48,363 bases of DNA, from IMG/VR virus record IMGVR_UViG_3300020469_000074, positions 1-48,363 of that record, one strand, 5' to 3'. Below, in pieces: positions 32,459 through 40,615 of this stretch. The notes beneath the pieces are model-generated. The model saw only the letters and a list, made by a program, of their open reading frames with translations. It searched no databases and was not told the origin of the DNA. The translations under genes and the position numbers were made by a program. Each line of letters starts with the position of its first letter. Within the stretch, counting starts at the first letter, position 1. The stretch comes from a virus.

Positions 32459-33229
32459 ATGTCAACTTATCTAGAACTATGCAATAAACTGTTATTGGAA
32501 GCTAATGAAGTTGAGTTAACATCTTCTACTTTTGCAAGTGCAAGAGGAATACAAAGTCATGTTAAAGATATTATTAACACAGCATATTTTGATATGATTA
32601 ACGAAGAGCCTCAATTTCCTTTTTTAGCTGTTAGCGAAAGCGGAACACATGATCCTTTATATGGTAATGTATTTATAGAAACAGTAGCAGGAACACGTTG
32701 GTATGAATTAAAACCTTCTAGTTCTAGTTTAGTTAGTGATTATGGATATATTGATTGGGATAATTTTTATGTTACTACAGTAGGGGTTTCAGGAGAAACT
32801 GAGCCTTATGAATCAGCAGAATTAAAATTTTTAACTATCGAAGAGTTTAAAGATTTTTTTCATGCGCGAGAACATATAGATGATTCAAGTAGCGATCCTC
32901 AAGGTGGAAAACCTTCGAGAGTTATAAAAAGTCCTGATAATAGAAAATTTGGATTAAGCCCTATACCTGATAAGGTTTATAGGGTTTATTTTTATGCTTA
33001 TGTTTTACCTACAAAATTATCAGCAGTAACAGATACACCAGTATTTCCTGAAGTTTATGAAACTGTATTATTAAGCAGATCAAGATATTATATGCATCAA
33101 TTTAAAGATAATATACAAGCGTCTGCTTTAGCTTTAGATGATTATAAAAAAGGAATACGTCGAATGCGTTTACATTTAATGACTCCAACCCCAAAGTATT
33201 TTAAAGATGATAGGATGGTTTATATTTAA
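32459..33229 (+). CDS. Head-tail adaptor / tail tubular protein A-like
   Basis: 256 residues. An N-terminal helical hairpin (STYLELCNKLLLEANEVEL), a beta-rich middle and a C-terminal helical part (VYETVLLSRSRYYMHQFKD, ALALDDYKKGIRRM) match the T7 gp11-type adaptor family. It should join the portal to the tail nozzle. Its stop is fused to the next ATG (TAATG at 33227-33231). Confidence 0.82.
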   Translation: MSTYLELCNKLLLEANEVELTSSTFASARGIQSHVKDIINTAYFDMINEEPQFPFLAVSESGTHDPLYGNVFIETVAGTRWYELKPSSSSLVSDYGYIDWDNFYVTTVGVSGETEPYESAELKFLTIEEFKDFFHAREHIDDSSSDPQGGKPSRVIKSPDNRKFGLSPIPDKVYRVYFYAYVLPTKLSAVTDTPVFPEVYETVLLSRSRYYMHQFKDNIQASALALDDYKKGIRRMRLHLMTPTPKYFKDDRMVYI

Positions 33230-34848
33230 TGTCTAGACTTCAACCTTACGGACTATCGTGTAAAGGCGGCTTAAATACTAACTTAACTCAGTTTGAGATG
33301 TTAGCACAGCCTGGCCTTGCTTTAATTTTAGAAAATTTTGAAGTTGATACTGACGGAGGCTACAGGAGAATAAACGGGTTTGAAAAATTTGGTGGGGCTA
33401 ATCAAGCAAGACCTAATTCAACTAATCCTATAATTGGATTACAAGTATATCACGACGGTGTAATAGCCGCATCAGGAACTAATATATATTTTTCAAATGA
33501 TGGAATAACTTGGCTACAAATTAATAGATCAGGAGTTGCATCAGGTGGAGATAATTTTAGCACTTTTTCAGGACGGTCTACTTTAACAAGAACAAATCAA
33601 GGCCAGTGTAATTTTGCTATATATGATGGTGACTCAACTTTTGGTGAAGTTTTTATTGCTGATGAATCATCTCAAAACAATATATTTTATTTTAGAATGG
33701 AAGGTTCAGGAGCTTTAAGCACTAGAACATTTTTTGCTAAAGAAATTACTGTAGGTGATGGATCTCCTAAACCTACACTAGTAACAGTACATGATAGGCA
33801 TTTAGTTGCGGCAGGAGATAATACTAGCTCTAATACACTTTTTATAAGTGGAACAGACGATCCCGAAAGTTTTTCTAGTACAGGATCAAGCACAATAAAA
33901 ACTGACGATAAAATAATTGGTATTAAAGGTTTTCGTCAAGATTTAATTATTTTTGGTAAAAATAGTTTATTTAAATTAGTTAATATTAATGATTCTAATA
34001 CATTAGCAATACAACCAATCACAACAAACGTAGGTTGTTTAGATAACCATAGCATTCAAGAAGTTGCAGGCGATTTAGTATTTTTAGCTCCCGATGGTGT
34101 ACGTACTGTTGCAGGTACAGCACGTATTGGTGACTTAGAGTTAAGCTCTATTAGCAGACAAATACAAAAACGTGTAGAAACTATAGCGGCAGACATTAGT
34201 AATTTAACTATATCTAGTGTAGTTTTGCGTCAAAAATCGCAATATAGAATATACTACTCGGTATTAAATCAGTCTCCAAGATCTTCTAAAGGAATTATAG
34301 GAACATTAACTAGTCAAGGTTTTGCATGGTCTGAAACTATAGGAATACAGGCTCATTCTATTGCTTCAGGATTTGATAGTAATAATGTAGAACAAACTTT
34401 TCATGGGGATAGGGATGGTTTTGTATATAAACATGATTCGGGAAATTCATTTTTTCATAATAATGTAGAAGCTAATATTAGAGCAGTCTATAAAACTCCT
34501 CATTTTGATTTTGGAGATTTTGGAACAGTTAAAAATTTAAGGTACGTTAAACTTGCTTTTACACCAGAAGGTCAAATACAGCCTACTTTAAGAGTTAGAT
34601 ATGATTATGAAGATGTAACTGTACCGCAACCAAATGATTATGTGTTAGATACTATACCTGCTCCTGCAATTTTAGGAAGTTCTAAGTTTAGTTCAGTATT
34701 ATTTGGAAATACTACTGATCCGTTAGTAAGAACATCAGTACAGGGAGCAGGGACATCTGTAAGTTTTAGAATATTATCAGATGATAAAAACGCCCCTTAT
34801 TCTATAAACGGTATATATACTCAGTATTTACCGTCGCAAAGGAGATAA
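33229..34848 (+). CDS. Tail nozzle / tubular protein B-like
   Basis: 539 residues, nearly all beta. N-terminal KGGLNTNLTQFEMLAQPGLA and ENFEVDTDGGYRRINGFEKF are typical of nozzle proteins in marine podoviruses; repeated DGV/DDP/GxxW blades look like a beta-propeller (about 60-380). It should form the distal tail tube like T7 gp12. It is shorter than T7 gp12 (794). The start is coupled to the adaptor gene. Confidence 0.82.
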   Translation: MSRLQPYGLSCKGGLNTNLTQFEMLAQPGLALILENFEVDTDGGYRRINGFEKFGGANQARPNSTNPIIGLQVYHDGVIAASGTNIYFSNDGITWLQINRSGVASGGDNFSTFSGRSTLTRTNQGQCNFAIYDGDSTFGEVFIADESSQNNIFYFRMEGSGALSTRTFFAKEITVGDGSPKPTLVTVHDRHLVAAGDNTSSNTLFISGTDDPESFSSTGSSTIKTDDKIIGIKGFRQDLIIFGKNSLFKLVNINDSNTLAIQPITTNVGCLDNHSIQEVAGDLVFLAPDGVRTVAGTARIGDLELSSISRQIQKRVETIAADISNLTISSVVLRQKSQYRIYYSVLNQSPRSSKGIIGTLTSQGFAWSETIGIQAHSIASGFDSNNVEQTFHGDRDGFVYKHDSGNSFFHNNVEANIRAVYKTPHFDFGDFGTVKNLRYVKLAFTPEGQIQPTLRVRYDYEDVTVPQPNDYVLDTIPAPAILGSSKFSSVLFGNTTDPLVRTSVQGAGTSVSFRILSDDKNAPYSINGIYTQYLPSQRR

Positions 34849-34851
34849 TAA

Positions 34852-37800
34852 ATGGCAAGTGTAGGTTATACAAGACAAAGTTCTTTTGTAGATGGTGATA
34901 CCATTAATGCAGATCTTTTTAATTTAGAATATAATAAACTTGTAAATGCTTTTGCTTATAGTTCTACAGGAACTACTGGACATCAACATGATGGGACAGG
35001 CGCAGAAGGCGGCAATATTCCGCAGATTGGAGATCAAGATTTTAATAATAAAATAGTAGTTGATAGTTCTAATAATCGTTGGGGAGTTTTTGTTGAAGTA
35101 AGTTCTAATTCAGTAGAACAAATACGAATACAAGATGGAGCTATAGTTCCAGTAACAGATAATGATATAGATTTAGGAACAAGTTCTTTACAGTTTAAAG
35201 ATGCTTTTTTTGATGGAACTGTAGAAGCAGACGCTATAACAATTAACGGTACGACACTAGCAGAGACAATTAGTGATACTGTAGGAGCTATGGTAGGTTC
35301 TAATACTGAAACTGGCATCTCAGTAACTTATGATGACTCAGATAATACTTTAGACTTTGTAATAGGTGCTGACTCTATTGTTAGTTCAATGCTTGATACT
35401 AACATAGATATTGCAGGTACGTTAGATGTTACTGGTGTTTTAACAGCAGACACTAATGCTACTATTGCAGGGACATTAGGTATTTCCGGTGGTTCTACAA
35501 ATGGAGTACAAATTTCTCAAGGTGCTATATCAATTAAAAATGGTGGTGCACAATCATATGTAGATTTTTATTGTGAATCTTCTAACGCACACTATGCAAG
35601 ATTACAAGCTCCTGCTCACTCTGCTTTTAGTGGTAACATTACAGCAACATTACCAGTAACAACAGGTACGCTTGCTTTAACATCTGATATACATACTACA
35701 GAAGAGCTACAAGATATTATTGGAGCTATGTTTAGTTCTAATACTGAATCAGGTATTACAGCAACATATCAAGATAGTGATGGTACTATTGACTTAACGG
35801 TTGGTAATGCCGCTACAGCTACAGCACTAGAAACGGCTAGAACAATACATGGTGTTTCATTTAATGGAACAGCAAACATAGACTTAACAGAAGTTGTACA
35901 AGATACTGTTGGTGCTATGTTTTCAAGTAATACTGAGACAGGCATTACTGCAACTTATCAAGATTCCGACGGGACTATAGACCTTGTAACAGATGTAAGC
36001 TCTCTTTCTGCTCCTACTATTACTAGTCCTATAATAGTTGGAGAAATAGCTATTGCTCCTTCTGAAGCTACGACTCAAACACTTACAGTTACAGTAGCCA
36101 GTAAAACTTCTGAGCATCCTTATGATGGTGGTTCTGGCAATGCCTATGTTATAGACGGCGTAGAGTCTCCCTATTTAACTTTAGTTCCTGATACTACATA
36201 TAGATTCGATCAAGCTAACGCTAGTAATGATGGACATCCTCTTAGATTCTATTATGAGTCAGATAAAACAACTGCATATACTACAGGTGTTACAGCTAGT
36301 GGAACGCCCGGCAATGCAGGAGCATATACAGAAATAAAAGCTACCGCTTCTACACCTACTGTTTTATTTTATCAGTGTTCTTCTCATGCTTTAATGGGCA
36401 ATAGAGTAAACTTTGATACTAGAAACTTAACAGGTTTTGCAACTGGTGATCTTGTAACTTCTGGAAGTGTTACTAATGCAATGCTTGCAGGAAGCATAGC
36501 TAATGCTAAATTAACTAATTCTTCTATTACTATAAATGGATCTGCTATTTCTTTAGGGGGTTCTGTAACAACAACAAATACAATGGGTTCTGGTTTTGTT
36601 CTTGAAGACGGAGATGGAACAGAAGTCACTATTACAGAAAATAAAGAAGTTAAATTTGTAGAAGGCGGTGGAATTGATATTAACTGGACTGATACAGATA
36701 ATGGTACAGATGCAGATCCTTACGATTTAACCTTTACTATTGCTTCGGGAGGCGTTACTAATGCAATGCTTGCAGGATCAATAGCTAACTCAAAACTATC
36801 TAATAGTTCTATTACAGTATCAGATGGCAGTAACACTACTGCAACCGCATTAGGAGGAACTATAACTTTTTCAGGGACTTCTTCTGAAACAACTGTAGCA
36901 GAAAGTTCTGGAACAATTACTATTGGACTACCAAATGACGTTACTGTAAGCAACGACTTAACAGTATCAGGAAACTTAATAGTGTCGGGAAATTCAACTA
37001 TTACAGGATCTACTATTTCTAATACAAATTTTACAGGTCTTTCTAATAACAATAGTGCTAACAGCACAGATTTTGGATTTTACGGTAAATATGTAGAATC
37101 AAGCACAACTAAATATGCAGGTCTTTTCTTTGATGCTTCTACTGATAATACTTTTAGATTATTTACAGATACTCAAACTGTCCCTTCTACTACAGTCAAT
37201 ACTGGGGCTACGGGATATGCGGCGGCAGATATTATAATCGCAGGTCTAACTGCAAGCTCTTTAGACATTTCAGGCGATGCGGATATTGATGGAACTTTAG
37301 AAGCAGATGCAATTACCGTAAACGGTACTGCACTTAATACTGTTATTGCAGGAGTTACAGTAACTAATGCTACTAATGCTACTAATTCTTCTCATGTTTT
37401 AGTAACAGACAATGAAGACACAAACGAAGAAAATTTAATTACTTTTGTAGAAGGCGCTACTTCTAGTACAGGCAATGTTGGACTAGAAATGGATGGACAT
37501 TTAACATATAACCCAAGCACAGGCACCGTGTCAGCTACAGTATTTAAAGGTAATATTGATGCAGTAGACGGAGATTTTGATGGCACACTAGAAGTAGATA
37601 ATCTTACTATTGGCGGCGCACAAGGCACTGACGGACAAGTTCTTACTAGTACAGGTTCCGGTGTAGCGTGGGAAGACGCAAGTAGTGGCGGTGGTAGTGG
37701 ACAAGAAATAACAGCTATTACAGCCAACACTACTTTAGCTAATAGCGATAAAGGCAAGTTAATTCAAACTGAAACTTCAGGAATTACAATAACAATACCT

Positions 37801-38988
37801 GCTTTAAGTGGTTTAGATGCTGATTGGTTTGTTGATATAGAAACTATAAATACAAGCACTTTTAATCATGGAAAAGTGACAATAGATATTACAACCAATA
37901 ACACAGGAGCTTCTATAGGACCAGGTGGAAATGGAACTCTATATGGTGCTCAAAGAATAAGACTTCAAAGAAGCCCCGCAGGTGGAGATGCTCAAGGGCA
38001 ACTAAGTGCTTTTATACAAACTATGTTAACTGGTGGAATTATAGTCAGAGAAGATAGATTAGCAGGGAGCTTACAAGGAGGCGATGTTGGCGTTGGAAGT
38101 ATTATGTTAGGAAATGCGAATAATGCTTCTGGAAATGATTGCATAGGTATAGGGCAGTTAGTTACATCTAATGCTACTGGATCTATTGCTATAGGTTCAT
38201 ACTCAGGCGGTTCTGTAACTTCCTCTGCGACAAGCTCTGGTGCTACAGCTATTGGAGGAGCAGGAGCCTCTGGTTCTAATGGCCTTGCAATGCATATAAT
38301 GAATAGTAGCACTTCTTATGGAGCTACAAATACTAGGTCGGTAGCAATAGGTAATCTATCTAAAGCGTCTGGCATTAGTTCTGTATGTATTAGTAATACT
38401 TCTGTTGCAAGTGGATCCAATTCAATAGTTATAGGTGGTGCTTCTGGTACTGCTTCAGCATCTAACTCTACAGTGATAGGTGGTAGTTCAAACATAGCAG
38501 ATCTAGATTACTCAATAGCAAAAGGTTATTATGGTAATGCCAACGGAGTACGTGGTAAAGAGGCTTTTGGTAATGGGCCAGGTAGGCAAAGAGCGCAGTA
38601 TTGTCTTTCTATAGATACTACTGATGATACGGCAACTGTAATGGGAGTACACTATTACGCACCGACCTTGTCTGCGGCTAATCAATTAGTTATACCTAAC
38701 AATACAGTGATGGCATTTAGCGGTTTAGTTACTTGCAGACAACAGGCCGCTGATGGCACAGACTCAGCCGCTTTTGAGGTTAAGGGACTATTAAGAAGAG
38801 AAGGTTCAGCAAGTACGACAACCTTAGTTACTTCACTTATTAATACAATTAGTAATGCTCAAAGTTTTGGAGTTGCTTTAAGTGCGAATACAACACTAGG
38901 CTCTCTTTCTATTACTGTAACAGGCGCGGCATCTCACGATTTACGTTGGGTAGCTCAATTAGATACCGCAGAATCTACTTATGCATAA
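34852..38988 (+). CDS. Long tail fibre with cupredoxin-like domain
   Basis: 1378 residues. The N-terminal attachment region contains GHQHDGT (His44/His46). Three ~30-residue units (D-T-V-G-A-M...S-N-T-E-T-G-I...Y-x-D-S-D) start near 140, 287 and 350. Residues about 408-526 resemble a cupredoxin, with His462, Cys509, His512 and Met515. Two TNAMLAGSIAN units follow (about 540 and 635). A LTSTGSGVAWED linker lies near 930, YadA-type S-x-A-I-G repeats near 1100-1230, and a beta-rich C-terminal tip. It is the main receptor-binding fibre candidate and is followed by a ~100-residue partner gene. Confidence 0.88.
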   Translation: MASVGYTRQSSFVDGDTINADLFNLEYNKLVNAFAYSSTGTTGHQHDGTGAEGGNIPQIGDQDFNNKIVVDSSNNRWGVFVEVSSNSVEQIRIQDGAIVPVTDNDIDLGTSSLQFKDAFFDGTVEADAITINGTTLAETISDTVGAMVGSNTETGISVTYDDSDNTLDFVIGADSIVSSMLDTNIDIAGTLDVTGVLTADTNATIAGTLGISGGSTNGVQISQGAISIKNGGAQSYVDFYCESSNAHYARLQAPAHSAFSGNITATLPVTTGTLALTSDIHTTEELQDIIGAMFSSNTESGITATYQDSDGTIDLTVGNAATATALETARTIHGVSFNGTANIDLTEVVQDTVGAMFSSNTETGITATYQDSDGTIDLVTDVSSLSAPTITSPIIVGEIAIAPSEATTQTLTVTVASKTSEHPYDGGSGNAYVIDGVESPYLTLVPDTTYRFDQANASNDGHPLRFYYESDKTTAYTTGVTASGTPGNAGAYTEIKATASTPTVLFYQCSSHALMGNRVNFDTRNLTGFATGDLVTSGSVTNAMLAGSIANAKLTNSSITINGSAISLGGSVTTTNTMGSGFVLEDGDGTEVTITENKEVKFVEGGGIDINWTDTDNGTDADPYDLTFTIASGGVTNAMLAGSIANSKLSNSSITVSDGSNTTATALGGTITFSGTSSETTVAESSGTITIGLPNDVTVSNDLTVSGNLIVSGNSTITGSTISNTNFTGLSNNNSANSTDFGFYGKYVESSTTKYAGLFFDASTDNTFRLFTDTQTVPSTTVNTGATGYAAADIIIAGLTASSLDISGDADIDGTLEADAITVNGTALNTVIAGVTVTNATNATNSSHVLVTDNEDTNEENLITFVEGATSSTGNVGLEMDGHLTYNPSTGTVSATVFKGNIDAVDGDFDGTLEVDNLTIGGAQGTDGQVLTSTGSGVAWEDASSGGGSGQEITAITANTTLANSDKGKLIQTETSGITITIPALSGLDADWFVDIETINTSTFNHGKVTIDITTNNTGASIGPGGNGTLYGAQRIRLQRSPAGGDAQGQLSAFIQTMLTGGIIVREDRLAGSLQGGDVGVGSIMLGNANNASGNDCIGIGQLVTSNATGSIAIGSYSGGSVTSSATSSGATAIGGAGASGSNGLAMHIMNSSTSYGATNTRSVAIGNLSKASGISSVCISNTSVASGSNSIVIGGASGTASASNSTVIGGSSNIADLDYSIAKGYYGNANGVRGKEAFGNGPGRQRAQYCLSIDTTDDTATVMGVHYYAPTLSAANQLVIPNNTVMAFSGLVTCRQQAADGTDSAAFEVKGLLRREGSASTTTLVTSLINTISNAQSFGVALSANTTLGSLSITVTGAASHDLRWVAQLDTAESTYA
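35270..35993 (+). repeat. Three ~90-bp fibre repeats
   Basis: Units at about 35270-35365, 35710-35805 and 35900-35993 encode DTVGAM(V/F)xSNTETGI followed by TYxDSDxTxDLV. Copies 2 and 3 are the closest. They are probably rigid shaft repeats of the tail fibre. Confidence 0.7.
36469..36777 (+). repeat. Repeated TNAMLAGSIAN segment
   Basis: 36469-36492 and 36754-36777 are identical over 24 bases (encoding TNAMLAG) and the homology continues through SIANxKLxNSSIT. This is a recent internal duplication within the fibre gene, 285 bp apart (a multiple of three). Confidence 0.75.
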
Positions 38989-38999
38989 GAGGAATAAAA

Positions 39000-39296
39000 A
39001 TGGCTATTAAAATAACTAAAGATTCATCAGCTTTTGGTGCAACATTTACTGATGCTTATTACAGAATAGTAAATGTAAGAATTGAAAGAGATGGGGTTAT
39101 GGAAAAATTTAAAACGTGTATAGATGTAAGTGGGTTTGCAACATCTTCCCCTACTGATAACACTAAAGAAATAGATTTTTTATCGTTTAATACAAAAGAA
39201 TCTGATATAAGTTCTCAAAGTGGGTCTGCATACTATGAAAAATGTTATCAGTGGCTTTTAACACAACCAGAGTTCTCTGGAGGGAGTTCAGTCTAA
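39000..39296 (+). CDS. Fibre-associated small protein 1
   Basis: 98 residues from the ATG at 39000, after AAGAGGAATAAAA. It is paralogous to the protein at 40628-40942: both share FTDAYYRIV-like and CYQWLLTQPEFSG segments. Each follows a tail-fibre gene, so a fibre chaperone, cap or connector is the best inference. Its stop is fused to the second fibre's ATG (TAATG). Confidence 0.75.
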   Translation: MAIKITKDSSAFGATFTDAYYRIVNVRIERDGVMEKFKTCIDVSGFATSSPTDNTKEIDFLSFNTKESDISSQSGSAYYEKCYQWLLTQPEFSGGSSV

Positions 39297-40615
39297 TGCC
39301 TATATTAACTAATCATCAAACAAATACTTTAGGTAAAAATGATGATACAGATCTTCTTACCTTTACAAGTGGAGAGCTTGATGTAGCAGGGACAGTAGAC
39401 GCTACTAATTTTAAAGTTAGCGGAGCGCAAGGTACTGACGGACAGGTACTCACTAGCACAGGTTCAGGCGTAGGTTGGGAAGATGCAGGTGGTGGTGGTG
39501 GATTTACCTCTATAACAAGATCAGGAAAAACCGCTGACTATACTATTGTTGCAGGTGACGCAGGAAAAGTCATAGAACATACAGATAATGATATAACTCT
39601 TACGTTAACAGCGGCGGCAACACTTGGAGATGGTTTTCATGTCTGGGTTAAAAATCTTGCAGGTACAGGAGATGTTACATCTTTTGCTTTTAATGGTTCT
39701 GAACACATGGATGGAAGAACTACTGATAAACTTTACTGTGGTGAAAGTTTTCATATATATTGTGATGGCTCAAACTTTAAAATTTTAGACGATGATAGAG
39801 GCATTTCAACAAATATAGGCGATGATTATTCCCCAAGACCTACAGCAAGTGGAGATAGATCTACGGCAATAGGAATAGGATCTAATGCGACAGGCTCTCA
39901 ATCGACGGCTATTGGATATTATGCTACTGCTTCAGGTACATATTCAACTTCTATAGGTCTTGAGAACAATGTATCAGGAAACAATTCTGTTGGTCTAGGT
40001 AATAGCAATTCTGTAAGTGGTAGTAGTGGGGTAGGTATAGGCTATGATAATATTGTCTCCTATAATTATGGTTTTGCTTTTGGGTATAACAACCAGGCAA
40101 GTGCAAATTATTCATCGTGTTTCGGTGCTAGAACAAGGACAAGAACAAAAGGAGAGCATAGTTTTGGTAGTGGTACACTAAATAGTATAGGTTATGTTCA
40201 AGGTAATATTCAAATGCTTCAGGCCGGAACCACAGATGCAACACAAACTACACTGACTTCTTCTACACATTATGCAAGTGCCGATACAGTAAGTAGCGAT
40301 AACGTATTTCTTATACCACAGTATTATGGAAAAACTTTTACAGGCATGATAATTGCTAAAGGAACTGCATCTTCAGAAAAAGTAAGAGGTTGGAAATTTG
40401 AAGGAGTAGCATTTAGAGGAGCAAATGCAAGTGATACAGAACTACTTGGAAGTTCAGTAACAGATCTATATAACAAGAACGCTTCTAGTTGGGCGGTAGC
40501 TTTAGCTGTTAATACAACTAGAGGTAGTATTGACGTAAAGGTAACTGGAGAAGCAAGCACACATATTCATTGGGTATGTAGAATAGATTCTGCCCAAATT
40601 TTTCATCAGACATAA
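39296..40615 (+). CDS. Second tail fibre, YadA-like repeats
   Basis: 439 residues from the ATG at 39296, coupled to the previous stop. VSGAQGTDGQVLTSTGSGV is nearly identical to a segment of the first fibre. Residues about 185-290 are S-x-A-I-G head repeats (STAIGIGSNATGSQSTAIGY), as in trimeric autotransporter heads, and the C-terminal domain ends, like the first fibre, in NTTRGSIDVKVTGEAS and WVCRIDSA. It is probably trimeric and involved in receptor contact. It lacks the cupredoxin-like and long shaft parts of the first fibre. Confidence 0.82.
   Translation: MPILTNHQTNTLGKNDDTDLLTFTSGELDVAGTVDATNFKVSGAQGTDGQVLTSTGSGVGWEDAGGGGGFTSITRSGKTADYTIVAGDAGKVIEHTDNDITLTLTAAATLGDGFHVWVKNLAGTGDVTSFAFNGSEHMDGRTTDKLYCGESFHIYCDGSNFKILDDDRGISTNIGDDYSPRPTASGDRSTAIGIGSNATGSQSTAIGYYATASGTYSTSIGLENNVSGNNSVGLGNSNSVSGSSGVGIGYDNIVSYNYGFAFGYNNQASANYSSCFGARTRTRTKGEHSFGSGTLNSIGYVQGNIQMLQAGTTDATQTTLTSSTHYASADTVSSDNVFLIPQYYGKTFTGMIIAKGTASSEKVRGWKFEGVAFRGANASDTELLGSSVTDLYNKNASSWAVALAVNTTRGSIDVKVTGEASTHIHWVCRIDSAQIFHQT

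Follow-up and report, generated by a model that had tools for sequence, protein, structure and literature searches.

Our results indicate that residues ~408–521 of a tail fibre protein from a marine virus are probably a divergent module of the type-1 cupredoxin family, with a working type-1-type site inside the fibre. The fold, the homology, the conservation of the ligands, the presence of the domain in virion structural proteins and its exchange as a module were established computationally. A cupredoxin fold with a competent metal site is very likely, and it is fairly likely that copper is the natural metal of this predicted site. The fibre is encoded in a virus record of 48,363 bases, hereafter called the window. 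Because its terminase and portal proteins are closest to those of the Pelagibacter phages HTVC115P, HTVC103P and HTVC104P, followed by HTVC033P, the Roseobacter CRP phages and the Puniceispirillum phage HMO-2011, the virus can be classified from these sequences as an HMO-2011-type podovirus. Pelagibacter (SAR11-type bacteria) is the likeliest host group. The fibre and its domain have the following features:

34852..38988, + strand: tail fibre open reading frame (ORF) of 1378 amino acids (PHROG tail fibre protein)
34864..35256, + strand: N-terminal virion-adaptor region, residues 5–135, common to fibres of HMO-2011-type phages without the copper domain
35275..36036, + strand: shaft region with three repeats D[TI][VI]GAM.. 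at residues 142, 288 and 351
36073..36414, + strand: cupredoxin-like domain, residues 408–521, from the first to the last strand of the model (~115 residues)
36235..36237, + strand: His462, putative N-terminal copper ligand just before a strand (GHPLRF from residue 461)
36376..36378, + strand: Cys509, putative copper thiolate ligand at a strand end (YQCSSHALMG from residue 507)
36385..36387, + strand: His512, putative second imidazole ligand in a short loop
36394..36396, + strand: Met515, putative axial ligand, with C-x2-H-x2-M spacing as in amicyanin
36415..38985, + strand: remaining fibre, residues 522–1378

A Pfam search with the complete fibre ORF gave no match. Residues 908–972 and 1158–1374 of the fibre resemble the next ORF (39242–40615) at 29–50% identity, and this ORF encodes another fibre-like protein, which has YadA head repeats. 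The ORF at 33229–34848 carries the PHROG label 'amidase' (phrog_5107), which is probably wrong; the remaining matches of this ORF were to proteins of head closure and virion structure.

The original prediction, made from the letters of the window, had named His462, Cys509, His512 and Met515 as a full type-1 copper ligand set, and all four residues are indeed found at these positions of the fibre ORF. Residues 509–515 read CSSHALM, an amicyanin-type loop, since the ligand loop of amicyanin is spaced C-x2-H-x2-M. Cysteines are few in this fibre. The longer pattern aromatic-x-C-x2-H-x2-M occurs only once in it, and was found in 1 of 20,000 shuffles of the fibre sequence. Evolutionary conservation, as read from the aligned relatives, is a stronger argument against chance than this shuffling of a motif.

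The structure of the window domain was predicted with AlphaFold2 from an input of 53 window and scan-derived sequences, which yielded a model with nine strands, a pLDDT of 88.2 and a pTM of 0.82. Rather than placing the four residues far apart, the model gives them the layout of a cupredoxin. In the numbering of the query, His67 (His462) lies just before the strand 69–72, Cys114 (Cys509) ends the strand 109–114, and His117 (His512) and Met120 (Met515) occupy the short loop preceding the last strand (122–126). This predicted order of strands and ligands is that of a type-1 copper site. With this model, all eight Foldseek matches in the PDB at E ≤ 0.001 were rusticyanin (best 4.5e-5), and the next-ranked matches were nearly all laccases, SufI and copper nitrite reductase. 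A second AlphaFold2 model, of a relative (L059) whose domain is 46% identical to that of the window, reached a pLDDT of 91.9 and matched AcoP, laccases, rusticyanin, plastocyanin, amicyanin and an azurin with a CAAHAAM loop; as the input alignments overlap, the second model is only partly independent of the first. The CAAHAAM loop of this azurin has the C-x2-H-x2-M spacing of the phage domain, with alanines between the ligands. A passage in PMC4059628, citing earlier work, proposes that copper geometry follows the length of the loop and not its sequence. The TM-scores of the PDB matches were only moderate (0.42–0.60), and hence the domain is a divergent cupredoxin. Three features by which a cupredoxin fold with a type-1 site is recognised were found, namely a Greek-key beta-sandwich (about eight strands are expected, and both models have nine), the order of the ligands along the strands and the conservation of the ligand set. 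The claim of a type-1 ligand set in a cupredoxin-like domain at about residues 408–526 thus holds, as the model, the Foldseek matches and a profile alignment with the ligands in register all agree.

Homology was much harder to detect from single sequences. Searches of Pfam and NCBIfam with the window domain gave no match even at an E-value of 1. Of 53 relatives, eight matched the Pfam family PF00127 (Copper-bind) at E-values up to 1, the best being 0.0051, and among the matches listed no relative reached the cut-off of 21.2 bits (best 17.3 bits). One relative (L068) matched the amicyanin family TIGR02657 at 6.7e-5, in the loop region only and with 23.2 bits against a cut-off of 110.2, and relatives matched halocyanin at 0.001. 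Wherever they were scored, the matches of relatives to plastocyanin/azurin, amicyanin and halocyanin stayed below the curated cut-offs. A sequence search of the PDB returned pseudoazurin only at E 0.2–1.1 and polysaccharide monooxygenase at 0.2–0.3, which is too weak when taken alone. Weak, sub-threshold matches of relatives to CBM_4_9, isopeptide-fimbrial and FecR families were set aside.

A profile bridge was more informative, in which the family profile was compared by hhalign with Pfam-recognised copper-binding domains taken from host-type genomes. The alignment had a probability of 95.7, an E-value of 1e-8 and a score of 52.5, and all four phage ligands pair with ligands of the copper-binding domains. 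The highest score was 15.0 in 50 column shuffles and 13.0 with the reversed profile. Masking of the four ligands lowered the score to 22.3, and therefore most, though not all, of the signal resides in the ligand columns. Given these shuffling, reversal and masking controls, a chance resemblance is unlikely. Against HPF-type domains alone the score increased to 68.9 (E 7.8e-12), while plastocyanin-type domains gave 38.1 (E 3.6e-6).

The ligands are the best conserved part of the domain. We grouped 189 unique domains, partly recruited with the motif itself, into 74 clusters (70% identity). Relative entropy was highest in the four columns of Cys509, Met515, His462 and His512, which were retained in 73, 74, 74 and 73 of the 74 clusters, respectively, and 73 clusters kept all four. 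A recount was limited to 128 domains at loci found with patterns omitting the Cys and the ligand His (one of these patterns began at the Met) or by whole-domain tblastn; here, H...CxxHxxM was kept in 126 domains. Both synonymous codons are in use at His462, Cys509 and His512 across the relatives, which therefore points to purifying selection and not to a recent copy.

A few relatives have lost ligands. In L178, Ser and Asp replace the Cys and His, and the rest of the domain is retained. Two further relatives, one of them from the cyanophage P-RSM6, share a replaced loop, S[FY]AEPxVANTADxNAGFG, in which the Cys, His and Met are gone and outside which the domain is again retained:

ORF from 1906, residues 385–453: domain of L066, loop replaced
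ORF from 1888, residues 383–451: domain of L130 (P-RSM6), loop replaced

This sister branch still has the upstream His and, judged from its sequence, would serve as a natural metal-less control. The joint loss of ligands in these three relatives is as expected if the ligands serve one site. Since all three keep the domain, the metal is not needed everywhere.

As the original prediction suggested, similar segments are widespread in marine phages, which scans of IMG/VR and of phage records demonstrated. The first IMG/VR scan found relatives at 69 places and the profile scan at more than 500 places among the matches listed, and the domain occurred in 62 phage records and at 50 places in GTDB genomes. 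It was found in cyanophages, pelagiphages and Methylophilales phages, in fibres, baseplate proteins and other structural proteins. Examples are annotated tail fibres of Melnitz, Mosig, P-SSM2, Bellamy and Baldr, gp7 of P-HM1 and P-HM2 (annotated as baseplate wedge initiator), and virion structural proteins of S-TIM5 and Syn1. The only Pelagibacter phages among the 62 records were Mosig and Baldr, and Roseobacter or Puniceispirillum phages were absent from them; hence, the nearest isolates of the window lack the domain. In BFVD, 72 viral proteins matched the model at E ≤ 0.001, including baseplate wedge tail-fibre connectors and a pithovirus beta-sandwich protein. Three beta-sandwich proteins from pithovirus and marseillevirus metagenomic genomes (A0A481Z6J5, A0A481Z7Q7 and A0A481YWX9) matched at E-values of about 1e-8.

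From these sequence comparisons, the domain is an exchangeable module, and fibres sharing the adaptor are usually without it. None of the 80 loci recruited with the adaptor (L220–L299) contained a copy, with many of the fibres there ending at contig ends. When all loci were pooled, eight adaptor-bearing ORFs had the domain, at positions ranging from residue 234 to 719 where the start of the ORF was present. Since most fibres with the same adaptor lack it, the domain is dispensable for the fibre as such. One relative (L004) carries a near-identical domain (93%) that lies at residue 719. In three others (L005, L007 and L011), a stretch corresponding to window residues of about 280–715 or more is 55–60% identical and stands behind a different N-terminus. 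In other virion-type proteins the domain is the first or the last element, and some carry two tandem copies (L041, L043–L048 and L105).

The domain also has cellular homes. In Actinomarina it is the C-terminal part of proteins of 219–304 amino acids with a long Thr-rich stalk (L109, 3368–4279; L108; L111), and the N-terminus of these proteins, as read from the sequence, looks lipoprotein-like. In Flavobacteriia, including the chromosome of Arcticimaribacter forsetii, giant proteins combine the domain with DUF11, DUF7507 and C-type lectin domains, and in several of their ORFs (L106, L092, L097, L116 and others) it lies at a matching place, around residue 1330. The Actinomarina and flavobacterial domains are interspersed among the phage domains in the tree. 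Some other GTDB matches are probably phage contigs in bins. Phage and cellular homes share the theme of a surface-exposed module rather than that of a soluble electron carrier.

Several other explanations must be weighed against a type-1-type site. A short motif in an unrelated domain might resemble a copper site by chance, in line with the failure of Pfam and NCBIfam to recognise the window domain. Yet, the fold searches, the in-register profile alignment and the family-wide conservation all concur, and even the ligand-masked score exceeds every shuffle, so that chance is a most improbable explanation. It is also quite unlikely that the domain is a metal-free descendant of the cupredoxin fold, a beta-sandwich decoration or sugar-binding module whose ligands are conserved for packing. 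Such a descendant would fit the metal-less relatives L066, L130 and L178 and the CBM_4_9 matches in 12 of the 53 members, of which the best E-value was 6.2e-5; among the matches listed the best relative (L070, 23.8 bits) stayed below the cut-off of 25.9 bits, and the window domain had no such match. It would also have a parallel in SufI, one of the fold matches, which keeps the multicopper-oxidase fold without copper. However, packing would not be expected to make one Cys, two His and one Met the four best conserved columns of a fast-evolving fibre module, and the ligands vanish jointly (Cys and His in L178; Cys, His and Met in L066 and L130), as they would from a joint site.

Alternatively, the cupredoxin-fold site might hold only Zn(II) or Cu(I) acquired in the cytoplasm, and act as a structural staple without copper(II) or redox chemistry. 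The fibre lacks an export signal and is synthesised in the cytoplasm, and virion proteins of the L034 type begin directly at the domain without a signal peptide. The bacterial cytoplasm is poor in copper, so that the virion could carry zinc or no metal, and recombinant cupredoxins are often loaded with zinc. In contrast, a C-x2-H-x2-M loop combined with Cys-His-His-Met ligands represents the canonical set for type-1 copper, and the axial Met, retained in all 74 clusters, would not be required for zinc. We consider a site without copper(II) chemistry unlikely. Predicted binding of copper by the domain is well supported by the sequences and the models, and we infer from them both the occupancy of the site and the identity of the metal.

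For this type-1-type site, the most likely mechanism would be as follows. Phage fibre and baseplate proteins would have acquired a cupredoxin domain as an exchangeable module. Synthesis and assembly of the fibre would take place in the cytoplasm, where its site would be pre-formed and either apo or loaded with Cu(I) or Zn, and a trimer, as in known fibres, would carry three such domains. The apo site of cupredoxins is pre-formed and binds copper very tightly, and therefore loading would be possible after lysis or at the host surface. Copper could then be taken up once the particles enter seawater or when they reach the host envelope. Once bound, the metal would hold together the upstream strand and the C-terminal loop of the beta-sandwich, and the resulting module would be rigid, compact and resistant to unfolding, while His512, on the exposed edge through which cupredoxins contact their partners, could offer a surface for contact with the host envelope. 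A role at the tip of this fibre was rejected, as the domain lies at residues 408–521 of 1378.

Given copper, a structural or adhesive role is somewhat favoured, and we infer a metal-stapled adhesion or shaft module rather than one for electron transfer. Electron transfer as the main role was ranked second, because none of the scanned neighbouring ORFs was recognised as a redox gene. To our knowledge, there is no redox partner on a virion. A redox or copper-dependent recognition role is unlikely. In a variant involving adsorption, the domain might dock on copper-handling or electron-transfer proteins of the host envelope, or sense copper. If so, copper chemistry would be part of phage-host recognition in the ocean; it is rather unlikely, though, that virions of several marine phage lineages carry redox-active type-1 copper centres on fibres and baseplates that are active in adsorption.

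If the domain does bind copper, many marine tailed phages would display a copper centre, bound to protein, on the exterior of their particles, and these virions might form a pool of colloidal copper in seawater. A fold and a testable chemistry would be gained for structural proteins that lack annotation in P-SSM2, P-HM1/2, S-TIM5, Bellamy, Mosig and Melnitz. Phage fibres have this one module in common with the stalked surface lipoproteins of Actinomarina and with giant adhesins from marine Flavobacteriia. The copper centre would join the T4-type HxH iron sites as another kind of metal site in phage fibres. Iron-binding HxH motifs occur in T4 gp37 and in fibres of marine phages and are the subject of the Ferrojan or Trojan Horse hypothesis, and the fibre-bound iron has been proposed to aid adsorption in a metal-poor ocean (PMC11705849). 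What they share with the proposed copper domain is a metal bound by a phage tail fibre. However, the iron of the HxH motifs is octahedral and held in a needle-like fibre, whereas the putative mononuclear Cys/His/His/Met site would lie within each chain's own domain.

In the open-licence literature, we found no report describing a cupredoxin within the fibre of a phage, an absence that is weak evidence. Cyanophages encode plastocyanin (petE), likewise a cupredoxin of marine phages, but as a free electron carrier in the host and not as a virion module. Amicyanin resembles the phage domain in its C-x2-H-x2-M loop and in the Foldseek matches, but not in score, which is far below the cut-off. It is a periplasmic electron carrier to methylamine dehydrogenase and not part of a virion, whereas the phage domain is. 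Rusticyanin and AcoP were the top structural matches, but with only 12–16% identity in most alignments, and unlike the fibre domain they are respiratory electron carriers. AcoP has an unusually long Cys-to-Met loop (PMC4059628).

The best profile match was to cellular cupredoxins of the HPF type (PF00127) from marine microbes, for example from a Prochlorococcus genome (L216) and a Bacteroidetes genome (L218), with all four ligands in register. The HPF-type domains exceed the Pfam cut-off, and the phage family differs from them by its occurrence in virion fibres and by a long conserved segment, YTTGVTxxGTPGNAGAYTEI. Next to the ligand residues, query residues 85–100 of alignment A1 (GTPGNAGAYTEI, with V85, G92 and A96 invariant) are the second strongly conserved part of the phage domain, and the cellular cupredoxins that were fetched lack them. 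By its fold and ligand set the phage domain is a cupredoxin, and under the Pfam and NCBIfam cut-offs none of the named families includes it. The Bacteroidetes protein has the upstream His in HPFYIKT and a YYYQC-x2-H-x2-M loop, as in the phage domain, while the Prochlorococcus protein has two extra residues before the Met.
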